In this document: positions 6,952-17,128 of the stretch, piece after piece
How positions within the stretch are numbered: position 1 is the first letter of the stretch
Layout of the letters: the number at the start of each line of letters is the position of its first letter
The notes under the pieces: model-generated
What the model was told of the DNA's origin: nothing
Seen by the model: the letters and a program-made list of their open reading frames with translations, nothing else
Database searches by the model: none
NCBI GenBank assembly: GCA_003246455.1
Contig: QKAF01000077.1
Coordinates: forward strand, 1 to 34,790
Direction: 5' to 3'
Length of the DNA: 34,790 nucleotides
Origin: Bacteroidota bacterium
GTDB lineage: Bacteria; Bacteroidota; Ignavibacteria; SZUA-365
Translations under genes and position numbers: made by a program

Positions 6952-9411
6952 CTACAGCCCGTACATCTCCCGGATCAGCGTCCGTACGCGCGGATTTTCC
7001 TCCGTCGCGACCCGGGGCAGGAGTATGCGGCGCGCTTCCGCATCGCCGAAGAGGCGCAGCGCCGACACCGCCCAGGCGCGCACCGGCGGGTGCGGCTCAT
7101 CGAGCCAGCCGAGCAGCATGGCGCGGATGCTGTCAGGATTCTCCCGAAGGATAAGCAGTGTTTCAAAGGATTTCGTCCGCACGGGGAGCGCATGGCCCGG
7201 CCCGGCCAGCCGGCGGATCACCCCGGCGAACTGCGTGTACCGGTACTTCTGCACCCAGTCCAGCGCCGCCAGCTGCACCACGTCGCTGTAGGATTTTTTC
7301 TCCAGACGCTGGCCGACGATCGCGGCCCCCGCGACGGAGTCGACCGTCAGAATGCCGTTCATCGCCGAGGCCTCGGCATAGCTGCTCGAATCGTCGAGCA
7401 TGCGGCGGAACTCGGGGATCAGCGCCGGATTCCGGAAATTATTTAATCCGTTGAGCGCGGTGGATCTGACCCCTGCAAAGGGATCCCGGGTGAGGCGAAG
7501 GAACAGCCCCTTCAGTTCTTCGGCGAACGGAAGCGCGTCCGGATGCAGGTTTGCCAGCTGTGTGGCGGCCGCTTTTCGCGCCTCGGGTTGCGGATCGCTC
7601 GATGCAGCCGCGAACAGGGCCTCCCGCGCCGCGGGTTGGTCGACGTGCACGGCAAGGGCCTCCGCGGCAAGAATCCGCTGTGCGGGACTCTTCGCCTCGC
7701 GCAGGGTCCGCGCCCATTCCTCTATAGAATAATCCATGCGCAGACGGCCGCAGATCAGGTTATCAGGATCGACTTCGACATAGCGCTCGTCATCATCGCC
7801 GATCTCGAACACTGCCTCCGTGACCGCATCGTCGATCCATACGCGTTCGCTGCGTCCGCCAGGCCACCGCACGCTCACGGGCAGGCGGAAATACCCGCAA
7901 AGGGAATCGCGGGCCTGCACCTGCCGGAATGTCAGGCGCAGGCTGTCGCCACCTGCGGTCATCACCCGGCTCACGGCGATCTCGGGGTATCCGGCGCCGT
8001 AGAGCCACTGCCGGAAAAACCATTGCAGGTCGCGCCCCGTCACGTCCTCCACGGTGCGCTTGAAATCGTTGGTCTCGACGCTGCCGAGGGCGAAGCGCTC
8101 GAGCCATGCCGTGATGACGCGGCGGAACTCCTCTTCTCCGATAATGTCGCGCAGCATATGCAGCACCGCCGCGCCTTTCGAATACGTGTTGGCCGAACCG
8201 CCGCGCCGTTCCCCCACCACGGGAATGCGCCCGGCCCTGTCGGCCCAGTCGAGATAACTGCGGATGCCGTTGAAACGCTGGATGATCTGGTCGGCGGTGC
8301 CGAAACGGTACAGCGTCCAGAGCTGCTGGAAATAGGTCGCGAATCCTTCGTTGAGCCACTCGTTTGACCAGTCGATATAGGTCACGTAATCGCCGAACCA
8401 CTGATGCGCCAGTTCATGCGCGATCAGGGGCTGCGGATCGTAATCCACCGCCGCGCGGGCATCGACCACCAGCCGGGTATCCGCCATGACGGTTGCGCCG
8501 GTGTTTTCCATGCCGCCGTAAAGAAAATGCCGCACCGGAATCTGTGCGTATTTCTTCCAGGGATACGCGACGCGCGTGTACTCGGAGAAAAACGCGAGCA
8601 TATCGTCCGTATCCTCGAACGTCCGGCGGACGTCCTCCGGAGCGTCGCCGCGGTAATGCCAGGAATCCACCGGAATCCCGTCGCGTTCGTCGTGGAACAC
8701 ATCGTAGACGCCCGCGGCAAGCATGATCAGGTAACTGCTGTGCGGCAGATCCTGGCGCCAGTGCCAGGTCGCGGTGCCGTCGCGGTTATCGCGCCGTGAA
8801 AGCAGGGCGCCGTTGCTCAGGGTGGCGAGCGCGGTATCGACGGTGATCAGGACTTCGCTGGTCGCCTTGTCGTTGGGGAAATCGTAGCAGGGAAACCAGT
8901 GGCGGTTGTCCTCCCCCTGTCCCTGCGTCCAGATCTGCATGGGATCGTCGGGAAAACTGGCGTTCGGTGAAATGAAGTACAGCCCCCGCTGCGGCCGGCA
9001 GTTGTACGCGATGTGCAGCCGGCGTTCCTGTCCGTGCGCGATCGCCTGCGGCAGCAGCACGCGCAGCTGGAGCGAATCATAGGTCCAGGAGACGTCCTCC
9101 CGCACGCTGCCGATCGACGGTCCCAGCTGCACGGCGCGGATATCCATGTTGACCGCATCGAGGACGACCGTGTCGATGGCGGTCCTCAGCGGAGTGAAGG
9201 TGATATCCACTTCCCCGTCGACGCGCCGGTCGGAAGGGTCGAGGCGGACCGCGATCCGGTAGTGTGCGACGTCGTATGTCCGTTCGCGTCGTCCGAAATC
9301 CTGTGAAGTAAGCGCCGGGGAAAAAATGGCGAAGAGGAGAAGAGGAATGAGAAAACGGAAAAATGGAATGATGGATTGATCAGGCCGGAGAGCCGGCGAT
9401 TTTTCCATCAT
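6952..9411 (-). CDS. Secreted M1 family aminopeptidase with HEAT-like C-terminal region
   Basis: Zinc aminopeptidase that removes N-terminal residues from peptides, probably in the periplasm or at the cell surface. In the 819-residue form the hydrophobic export signal spans about 17-36 and is followed by the beta-saddle domain. The exopeptidase motif is GGMEN (299-303) and the zinc site is HELAHQWFGD (His332, Glu333, His336) with Glu355 in NEWLNEGFA. From about 590 the sequence turns into alpha-helical repeats rich in Ala, Leu and Arg, resembling HEAT repeats. Two starts are possible: ATG at 9432, six bases after the upstream stop but without a good ribosome-binding site, or the ATG at 9411, preceded by AGGA at good spacing. 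I chose 9411. Both lie in or beside a large inverted repeat. It follows the vWA gene and probably shares its transcript. Confidence 0.95.
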   Translation of the reverse strand: MMEKSPALRPDQSIIPFFRFLIPLLLFAIFSPALTSQDFGRRERTYDVAHYRIAVRLDPSDRRVDGEVDITFTPLRTAIDTVVLDAVNMDIRAVQLGPSIGSVREDVSWTYDSLQLRVLLPQAIAHGQERRLHIAYNCRPQRGLYFISPNASFPDDPMQIWTQGQGEDNRHWFPCYDFPNDKATSEVLITVDTALATLSNGALLSRRDNRDGTATWHWRQDLPHSSYLIMLAAGVYDVFHDERDGIPVDSWHYRGDAPEDVRRTFEDTDDMLAFFSEYTRVAYPWKKYAQIPVRHFLYGGMENTGATVMADTRLVVDARAAVDYDPQPLIAHELAHQWFGDYVTYIDWSNEWLNEGFATYFQQLWTLYRFGTADQIIQRFNGIRSYLDWADRAGRIPVVGERRGGSANTYSKGAAVLHMLRDIIGEEEFRRVITAWLERFALGSVETNDFKRTVEDVTGRDLQWFFRQWLYGAGYPEIAVSRVMTAGGDSLRLTFRQVQARDSLCGYFRLPVSVRWPGGRSERVWIDDAVTEAVFEIGDDDERYVEVDPDNLICGRLRMDYSIEEWARTLREAKSPAQRILAAEALAVHVDQPAAREALFAAASSDPQPEARKAAATQLANLHPDALPFAEELKGLFLRLTRDPFAGVRSTALNGLNNFRNPALIPEFRRMLDDSSSYAEASAMNGILTVDSVAGAAIVGQRLEKKSYSDVVQLAALDWVQKYRYTQFAGVIRRLAGPGHALPVRTKSFETLLILRENPDSIRAMLLGWLDEPHPPVRAWAVSALRLFGDAEARRILLPRVATEENPRVRTLIREMYGL

Positions 9412-9422
9412 TCCATTTTTCC
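9357..9422. repeat. 19-bp perfect inverted repeat spanning the M1 start codon
   Basis: Arms GGAAAAATGGAATGATGGA (9357-9375) and its exact reverse complement (9404-9422) flank a 28-bp centre. The centre itself contains GCCGG-AGAG-CCGGC, so the whole can fold as one long hairpin. In the mRNA the first arm contains the AGGA-like ribosome-binding site and both ATG codons of the likely M1 start. The structure could block translation, or it could be a palindromic insertion. Confidence 0.9.
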
Positions 9423-14206: not shown

Positions 14207-14240
14207 TAAAAAAACGGCTCCGGAATCCGGAGCCGTTTTT
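14207..14240. terminator. Bidirectional terminator between TPM and groEL
   Basis: ACGGCTCCGG and CCGGAGCCGT form a strong stem with an A tract on the left and a T run on the right. It can end transcripts of the convergent TPM operon (+) and groESL operon (-). Its stem core resembles that of the terminator at 22465-22498. Confidence 0.92.
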
Positions 14241-14258: not shown

Positions 14259-15911
<1,653 letters not shown>

Positions 15912-15961: not shown

Positions 15962-16255
15962 CTATCCGACAATCGCGAAAATGTCATTCTCACGCATGAT
16001 CAGGTAATCTTCGCCTTCGACGGAGACTTCCGTACCGGAGTACTTCCCGTACAGCACCTTGTCCCCGACCTTGACTTCCATCGCGATGGCCTTGCCGTCT
16101 TCCGCGGTGCGGCCAGGTCCGACAGCAACGATTTCACCCTGCTGCGGCTTCTCTTTCGCCGAATCGGGGATGTAGAGACCGCCAGCGGTCTTTTCCTCGG
16201 CCTCGAGCGCACGAACAATGACCCGATCCGCGAGAGGTTTCAGATTCATTGCCAT
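15962..16255 (-). CDS. groES: Co-chaperonin GroES (Hsp10)
   Basis: Heptameric lid of the GroEL chamber, 97 residues. It shows [22 protein letters not shown] with the mobile loop near 17-34, then [26 protein letters not shown] and the closing [14 protein letters not shown] lies nine bases before the ATG at 16255; a second ATG two codons later is less likely. It is the first gene of groESL, transcribed from a strong promoter that overlaps a perfect CIRCE operator. Confidence 0.99.
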
Positions 16256-16309: not shown

Positions 16310-16336
16310 TTAGCACTCTCATCTACAGAGTGCTAA
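16310..16336 (-). promoter_or_regulatory. CIRCE operator (HrcA binding site)
   Basis: TTAGCACTC, nine bases, GAGTGCTAA: a perfect match to the CIRCE consensus. It overlaps the -10 end of the groES promoter and continues into the leader, the usual position for HrcA repression that is relieved on heat shock. Confidence 0.98.
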
Positions 16337-16363
16337 CATAAAAAATCACCACGGCAAAGTCAA
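16333..16363 (-). promoter_or_regulatory. groESL promoter
   Basis: On the minus strand TTGACT (16358-16363) and TATGTT (16335-16340) are 17 bases apart. In the Bacteroidota frame this reads TTG-N20-TATGTTAG. It lies directly upstream of CIRCE and about 80 bases before the groES ATG. Confidence 0.75.
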
Positions 16364-16375
16364 TACCCTGCAAAC

Positions 16376-16408
16376 TGCCATTATGTCATATTTTATGACA
16401 TAATGGCA
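16376..16408. promoter_or_regulatory. 33-bp perfect palindrome upstream of the groESL promoter
   Basis: Arms TGCCATTATGTCATA (16376-16390) and its exact reverse complement (16394-16408) flank TTT. Each arm is itself nearly palindromic (TGCCATTATGTCA, form TGnCATnATGnCA), so the site reads as two operators facing each other. It ends 13 bp upstream of the -35 element and is AT-rich in a GC-rich region. No U run follows, so it is unlikely to be the terminator of the thiamine pyrophosphokinase gene. The binding protein is unknown. Confidence 0.75.
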
Positions 16409-16474: not shown

Positions 16475-17128
16475 TTACAGCGTCCACATTCCTTCATGCA
16501 GTTCTCGAAACACGAGAAGCACGCCGTTACGCATGAAGATCGTGAACTTATCATCGAGCGCTTCGTTGCAGGTTCCTTCCGTCAGACCGAAGGAAAGGGA
16601 CTCCCCCTGTAGCGGATAACGCAATCCGGAATAGTGGATGCCGTCGGAAGGCGCGAGCGGAACGATGCTGATTCTGTCCGCGGGACGGCTTGGGAAGGTC
16701 CGTGTCGCGGTTATGATATCGACGCGATAATGGGGATCGAACAGAACGAGGTCGAAGTCGTCGCGGTAGCGGAGCAGGATGGAAAAATTCCCGAGCGTAT
16801 GATCGAGCAGCTTCCCGGTAACGCCGCAGACGGCGACGGTTCGGACTTCCTGCTCGCGAAGCAGGAGCAGCGCTTTTTCGAAATCGGTATCGTCCTGCCG
16901 TTCGAGATGGATCAGCGGGACACCCGCGCGCTCGTAATACGCGCGGGTGTCGCCGGTGATCGAATCGAAGTCGCCGATGATGGTGTCCGGCATGATGTCG
17001 AGGCTGCGCGCGGCGTTCGCGCCCCCGTCGGCACAGACGATGGTGTCGACCTGCGATACGAGAGAGTGCACCACCTCGTCGGCGGCCATTTTCCCGTTAC
17101 AAATCAGCAGTGCCTTCCGTGTATTCAT
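16475..17128 (-). CDS. Thiamine pyrophosphokinase (thiamine diphosphokinase)
   Basis: Cytosolic enzyme that transfers pyrophosphate from ATP to thiamine, giving thiamine diphosphate (TPP). The 217-residue protein shows the family motifs in order: CADGGAN (32-38), GDFDS (52-56), QDDTDFEKAL (78-87) and TGKLLDHTLGN (104-114). The frame is open further upstream, but ATG at 17128 fits the family N-terminus (ALLICNG) and has AAGGTG upstream. It begins 34 bases after the TonB-dependent receptor gene and lies behind the same TPP riboswitch. The pair therefore imports thiamine and converts it to the coenzyme that shuts off their transcript. No thiamine biosynthesis gene is present in the window. Confidence 0.95.
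   Translation of the reverse strand: MNTRKALLICNGKMAADEVVHSLVSQVDTIVCADGGANAARSLDIMPDTIIGDFDSITGDTRAYYERAGVPLIHLERQDDTDFEKALLLLREQEVRTVAVCGVTGKLLDHTLGNFSILLRYRDDFDLVLFDPHYRVDIITATRTFPSRPADRISIVPLAPSDGIHYSGLRYPLQGESLSFGLTEGTCNEALDDKFTIFMRNGVLLVFRELHEGMWTL

Follow-up and report, generated by a model that had tools for sequence, protein, structure and literature searches.

A paired operator upstream of groES probably places an Ignavibacteria chaperonin under a sigma-54 activator as well as HrcA

The groESL genes of a Bacteroidota bacterium of the class Ignavibacteria have a long, perfect palindrome just upstream of a promoter that already carries an operator for HrcA. Which factor does this second site serve, and how does it act on the chaperonin promoter? 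We analysed a stretch of 34,790 nucleotides (assembly GCA_003246455.1, contig QKAF01000077.1, positions 1 to 34,790), called the window below. The features around the palindrome are as follows.

14259..15893, minus strand: groEL.
15962..16255, minus strand: groES.
16310..16336, minus strand: CIRCE, the HrcA operator, TTAGCACTC-N9-GAGTGCTAA, a perfect match to the consensus.
16335..16340, minus strand: -10 hexamer of groES, TATGTT, from promoter reading.
16358..16363, minus strand: -35 hexamer of groES, TTGACT, 12 bp downstream of the operator, from promoter reading.
16376..16408, minus strand: 33-bp paired operator, TGNCA-N3-TGNCA-N7-TGNCA-N3-TGNCA, a perfect inverted repeat, from the sequence and comparison of congeners.
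16376..16388, minus strand: promoter-proximal 13-bp operator, TGACATAATGGCA, by motif match.
16396..16408, minus strand: promoter-distal 13-bp operator, TGCCATTATGTCA, by motif match.
16475..17128, minus strand: thiamine diphosphokinase gene (TIGR01378), upstream of groES and codirectional with it; the start codon is inferred.

The groES promoter is of the sigma-70 type (TTGACT-N17-TATGTT, 16363-16335) and is overlapped by the perfect CIRCE at 16310-16336, which an earlier sequence-only reading of this DNA had already recognized. The CIRCE consensus is matched there only, and the palindrome does not fit it. The palindrome spans roughly -49 to -81 of this promoter. It reads TGCCATTATGTCATA-TTT-TATGACATAATGGCA on the plus strand, with 15-bp arms that are 100% complementary around a 3-nt centre, and TGCCATTATGTCATAAAATATGACATAATGGCA on the groES (minus) strand. 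The sequence-only reading had thus described the perfect 33-bp repeat correctly, but had set it 13 bp from the -35 hexamer, where the measured gap is 12 bp. About 0.0007 perfect inverted repeats with a 15-bp arm and a loop of at most 10 are expected per window, and a chance repeat was rejected. A further perfect inverted repeat, with 19-bp arms (GGAAAAATGGAATGATGGA, 28 nt, TCCATCATTCCATTTTTCC), lies at 9357-9422 of the window.

The groES site contains two 13-bp near-palindromes whose centres are 20 bp apart, and we read its halves as two dimer sites sharing one face of the helix. Dimeric inverted-repeat sites, often in pairs along a single helix face, are what sigma-54 enhancer-binding proteins (bEBPs) use as enhancers (UAS), and the groES site has this form. 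The arm form first proposed, TGnCATnATGnCA, holds for both arms, which are its only exact matches in the window. One further exact match occurs in the 4.1-Mb source genome, where a nucleotidyltransferase coding sequence begins, and it was set aside as a regulatory site. Across 60 relatives the exact pattern has no match, since this form of the motif is narrower than what relatives keep, the looser TGNCA-N3-TGNCA, twice, with N7 between.

Operators of known heat-shock regulators were compared with the site. The HAIR element of HspR (consensus CTTGAGT-N7-ACTCAAG) and the CtsR box (an AGTCAAA-type direct repeat) are both absent from 16376-16408. The core of the palindrome, TGTCATA-AAA-TATGACA, resembles the RheA operator of Streptomyces albus hsp18, TGTCATC-N5-GATGACA, but the unit kept in relatives is TGNCA-N3-TGNCA and not the RheA operator.

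The conservation of the site was scored upstream of groES with the 16 fixed bases of TGNCA-N3-TGNCA-N7-TGNCA-N3-TGNCA. The four sequenced congeneric species reach 16, 13, 14 and 13 of 16, at a chance of 3.8e-6 per position for 13 or more, and all four keep the 33-bp length and the exact 12-bp gap to the groES -35. The palindrome sequence itself is found in none of the relatives, even in a loose form with three mismatches, and the sequence between and around the operator elements has diverged among the four congeners, leaving dissimilar flanks. Hence, the elements and their promoter phase are conserved, not the sequence. Conservation in close relatives was the test set by the sequence-only reading; length, four TGNCA elements and gap pass it in 4 of 4 congeners, and with the fixed phase to the groES -35 this assigns the site to groES rather than to the upstream gene. 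In the other groES upstream regions compared, from further genera of the family, the best matches reach 8-10 of 16, with the exception of G004, where a match of 12 overlaps the gene's own -35; groES of these genera has no paired operator.

Several observations were made beside this comparison. The groES upstream region of G004 (L013), which belongs to another genus, has a different, terminator-like hairpin, AAACCCTTAAATTGATCGATAATTAAGGGTTTTTGG, and locus L009 of G005 has a 36-bp AT-rich inverted repeat. In the sister species G003, another 33-bp N3-N7-N3 site, CGCCATTTTGGCAGATATACTGACATTATGTCA, scoring 15/16, is located on contig C134 (413-445; L037/L173), about 170 bp upstream of the ORF of a small membrane protein, a possible further member of the regulon. 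A second, divergent groES with 40% identity is present in G000 (contig C56, 24493-24759), and the second groES of relatives (L032-L034) is preceded by a glutaredoxin-like ORF.

That the palindrome arose by chance, or that it forms a hairpin or terminator at the 3' end of the thiamine diphosphokinase gene, is barely credible: as RNA it does fold at -20.9 kcal/mol, 66 bp past the stop codon of that gene, but it has no U-tract, no terminator call and no Rfam match, its distance to the groES -35 is fixed, its motif recurs at unrelated heat-shock promoters, and the site of the congener G002 forms no hairpin yet keeps 13/16 motif bases. A T-run (U-tract) 3' of the site is absent in three of the four congeners and present in one, so that the 3'-end structure named by the sequence-only reading as its refutation is not what the comparison reveals. 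An intrinsic terminator, with a G+C-rich stem followed by a U-tract, and an RNA family, for want of an Rfam match, were both rejected. By contrast, the hairpin just after groEL, at 14210-14240 of the window, has perfect 15-bp arms, AAAAACGGCTCCGGA-G-TCCGGAGCCGTTTTT, and A/T tails and is a typical intrinsic terminator.

The elements of the groES site are shared with other heat-shock genes. The 33-bp template, with at most two mismatches, has a handful of matches in 12 genomes of the family, and two of the best are in heat-shock promoters, one between the divergent hsp20 and dnaJ-clpB of G005 and one ahead of the lon gene of G010. For all 12 genomes, the regions upstream of the hsp20, ClpB and Lon loci were then compared. 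In the family, TGNCA-N3-TGNCA recurs upstream of lon, of hsp20-dnaK and in the divergent hsp20/dnaJ-clpB pair, the kind of recurrence for which the sequence-only reading had proposed to search. In each of the 12 genomes dnaK comes after the second hsp20 gene, hence it is probably in one transcription unit with that gene.

Over 34 heat-shock upstream regions (10 kb) single TGNCA elements are enriched 3-fold (185 vs 61) and N3-spaced pairs about 50-fold (23 vs 0.43 in shuffles, maximum 4). The gaps of 7 and 15, also used by the groES site, are enriched too. The exact TGNCA-N3-TGNCA is missing at some targets, among them hsp20-dnaK of the source genome and several hsp20/dnaJ regions. The 4.1-Mb source genome has 31 exact sites against 36 for the reversed control pattern, so there is no genome-wide enrichment and the significance lies in where the sites are. 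Most of the 31 are in coding sequence and were set aside; five are concentrated in the roughly 1.3 kb that precede groES, lon, hsp20 and miaB (Poisson p ~7e-13). In genus g3, the hsp20/dnaJ-clpB intergenic regions (L072/L074; G010 C307, G005 C15) carry long TGNCA arrays in 8-bp steps, which in G010 include as many as six exact N3 sites; this suggests cooperative binding of multiple dimers.

These promoters are of the sigma-54 type. Scored against TGGYAYR-N4-TTGCW (16 positions), the -24/-12 elements of dnaJ-clpB (TGGTACGATGATTGCA), hsp20-dnaK (TGGTATGGTATTTGCA) and lon (TGGCACAGATATTGCA) match at 16/16 each in the source genome, and many heat-shock genes of the family reach 15-16/16; the first hsp20 gene is weaker, with 14/16 in the source genome. 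The rpoN gene occurs once per genome in 12 of 12 genomes. In each of the six lon promoters that have a site, 73-74 bp separate the centre of TGNCA-N3-TGNCA from the -24 GG downstream of it; in five of six hsp20-dnaK promoters this distance is 71-72 or 82-83 bp, two spacings that differ by one helical turn. Placement upstream of a -24/-12 promoter, mostly by about 73 or 83 bp, is thus seen at lon, hsp20-dnaK and hsp20/dnaJ-clpB, and such a fixed spacing is the geometry that enhancer sites of a sigma-54 activator have.

At groES there is no conserved sigma-54 promoter, the best matches being 13/16 in the source species and 10-11 in its sisters. It is highly improbable that a sigma-54 promoter overlapping the sigma-70 -35 of the source species (GGTATTGACTTTGC) makes the palindrome an ordinary enhancer. 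A GG-N10-GC in the region 16367-16354 provides the 13/16 match, but shuffles equal this score (p ~0.13), the GG-N10-GC is absent from all three sister species although they keep the operator, and the operator is only about 8 bp from the putative -24, against 73/83 bp at the other genes. A groES sigma-54 promoter was therefore rejected as not conserved among the sisters, and we do not class the operator at groES with the ordinary sigma-54 enhancers.

Which protein binds the motif? None of the 20 regions examined has a bEBP gene next to groES, an arrangement known from Bacteroidota. The source genome encodes 14 bEBPs. One of them is the last gene of the operon miaB - SPOR-domain protein - metallo-beta-lactamase-fold protein - bEBP, in which the second and third names are read from sequence, and about 13 are encoded elsewhere. 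The miaB-operon bEBP (contig C15 of the source genome, 14046-15203) has the domains that define the class, a sigma-54 interaction AAA+ domain (PF00158, 238 bits) and HTH_8 (PF02954, 39.9 bits), and no receiver domain. The G[AS]FTGA loop is present in 13 of the 14 orthologs examined, the Fis-type HTH is nearly invariant, and a single ortholog is found in 78 of 81 relatives.

The promoter of this operon carries the motif. Exact TGNCA-N3-TGNCA is present in 12 of 18 miaB-operon promoters and has no occurrence in 120,620 bp of flanking sequence of the same loci. The sites precede the aligned miaB start, which is slightly downstream of the true one, by 60-91 bp, and the 12 motif-bearing promoters include those of two genomes from another family of the order and of one from another family of the class. 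The operon has a sigma-70-like promoter whose -35 is overlapped, in the source species and its sisters, by a second site that is near-perfect. This looks like autoregulation by the bEBP, and it is mainly through this linkage that we name the miaB-operon bEBP as the most likely candidate for the TGNCA binder.

Hence, we suggest, with a probability of roughly 60%, that the paired operator of a sigma-54 heat-shock regulon has been recruited to the sigma-70/CIRCE promoter of groES, where the miaB-operon bEBP would bind and activate in a class-I-like manner. The proposed scheme is the following.

Step 1: In the family, the receiverless bEBP of the miaB operon would bind the TGNCA-N3-TGNCA enhancers and switch on the sigma-54 promoters of hsp20, dnaJ-clpB, hsp20-dnaK and lon. 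It would also repress the sigma-70 promoter of its own operon.

Step 2: In the source genus, the paired site would have been recruited to groESL as well, that is, to a sigma-70 promoter with a CIRCE.

Step 3: The factor bound at groES would most probably stimulate RNA polymerase by direct contact (class-I-like), and HrcA at the CIRCE would supply the classical repression. As the distance from operator to -35 is rigid, direct contact with the polymerase (class I) fits better than looping.

The chaperonin is thus probably under a sigma-54 activator as well as HrcA. The sequence-only reading had proposed a paired operator for a second regulator besides HrcA, which gains support from the conservation in congeners and from the motif at other heat-shock promoters; we tie this regulator, by inference, to the conserved activator of the miaB operon. 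Both the assignment of the binder and the view that it raises rather than lowers groES expression are inferred. Against recruitment to groES stands that bEBPs classically act at sigma-54 promoters, not at sigma-70 promoters, and groES has no conserved sigma-54 promoter; the sites of the sister species are also imperfect.

It is distinctly unlikely that the same bEBP at the groES site damps or tunes the sigma-70 promoter, by blocking alpha-CTD or UP contacts or by stabilising HrcA repression. NtrC and PspF, both bEBPs, are known repressors of sigma-70 promoters, and the TGNCA sites of the miaB operon flank or overlap a sigma-70-like promoter as would be expected for repression by the same factor. 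However, the groES site stops short of the -35 by about 12 bp, too far upstream for simple occlusion, and this distance does not vary among the four species; it would also be odd for the chaperonin to be damped while other chaperones are activated. We judge activation to be about 2.5 times as likely as damping.

A different DNA-binding protein, either another bEBP of the genome or a regulator of another class, is an unlikely binder of the motif, though it fares best among the alternatives. The assignment to the miaB-operon bEBP follows from linkage in a genome with this many bEBPs, and the operon also encodes miaB and other proteins, so its site could serve a factor encoded elsewhere. Yet among the bEBP loci of the source genome a non-coding exact site is present only at the miaB operon, its placement there is kept to the order level and once to the class level, and the constant distance of 73/83 bp from the sigma-54 promoters points to some bEBP. 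In its widest form, our reading would make the receiverless bEBP, kept as one copy per genome across the class, a master heat-shock regulator (Hsp20, DnaK, DnaJ-ClpB, Lon) that in one genus was wired into a sigma-70/CIRCE chaperonin promoter and acts positively on sigma-70 together with HrcA; this we put forward tentatively.

We know of no well-described heat-shock activator in Bacteroidota. The analysis provides the sequence of an operator, a promoter architecture with fixed phase and one conserved protein as candidate regulator. A single protein and a small number of DNA fragments thus suffice to test who activates the sigma-54 heat-shock genes. At groES, nature would also have provided an example of a sigma-70 promoter that took over the enhancer motif of sigma-54 genes.

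Receiverless bEBPs of the PspF type consist of an AAA+ domain and a Fis-type HTH without a sensor domain and have an operator at their own sigma-70 promoter. The candidate is similar in all these respects, but differs in its gene context (miaB) and in its targets (cytosolic chaperones and Lon). In the literature searched, in which few subscription journals were covered, neither the motif nor its activator is described for Bacteroidota or Ignavibacteria, and the searched text on sigma-54 and response-regulator maps of D. vulgaris contains no matching motif.

Sigma-54 promoters have been predicted in Bacteroidota by a 2025 survey for GroEL, GroES, IbpA, GrpE, DnaJ and DnaK and for the proteases COG0542 and COG0466 (ClpB/Lon-type), and GroES of B. 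thetaiotaomicron is called sigma-54-dependent there (PMC12316311). The accessible text of this survey names no activator or enhancer motif for the chaperones and does not mention Ignavibacteria. Unlike in its predictions, groES here is a sigma-70/CIRCE gene that shares only the operator. The sigma-54 chaperone promoters are therefore already predicted, and the motif, its link to an activator and the promoter design appear new.

The NtrC-like HsfA of Myxococcus xanthus activates the heat-shock gene lonD (PMC9109919, citing Ueki and Inouye 2002) and is likewise, by that account, an NtrC-family activator at a heat-shock lon gene. However, HsfA acts as a response regulator, with HsfB as its kinase, whereas our candidate is without a receiver and is encoded in the miaB operon. 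The ibpB gene of E. coli encodes a small heat-shock protein and likewise has a sigma-54 promoter (PMC4316790, citing Kuczynska-Wisnik 2001), but it is a single gene in a mainly sigma-32 organism and is not known to belong to a shared enhancer regulon. Last, groE of Helicobacter pylori is under dual repression by HrcA/CIRCE and HspR/HAIR (PMC9696931). This makes it similar to the groES promoter described here, with two regulators at one promoter and HrcA at the CIRCE among them. However, the second factor in H. pylori is the MerR-type repressor HspR, whereas the site here is not a HAIR element and its motif stands at sigma-54 promoters.
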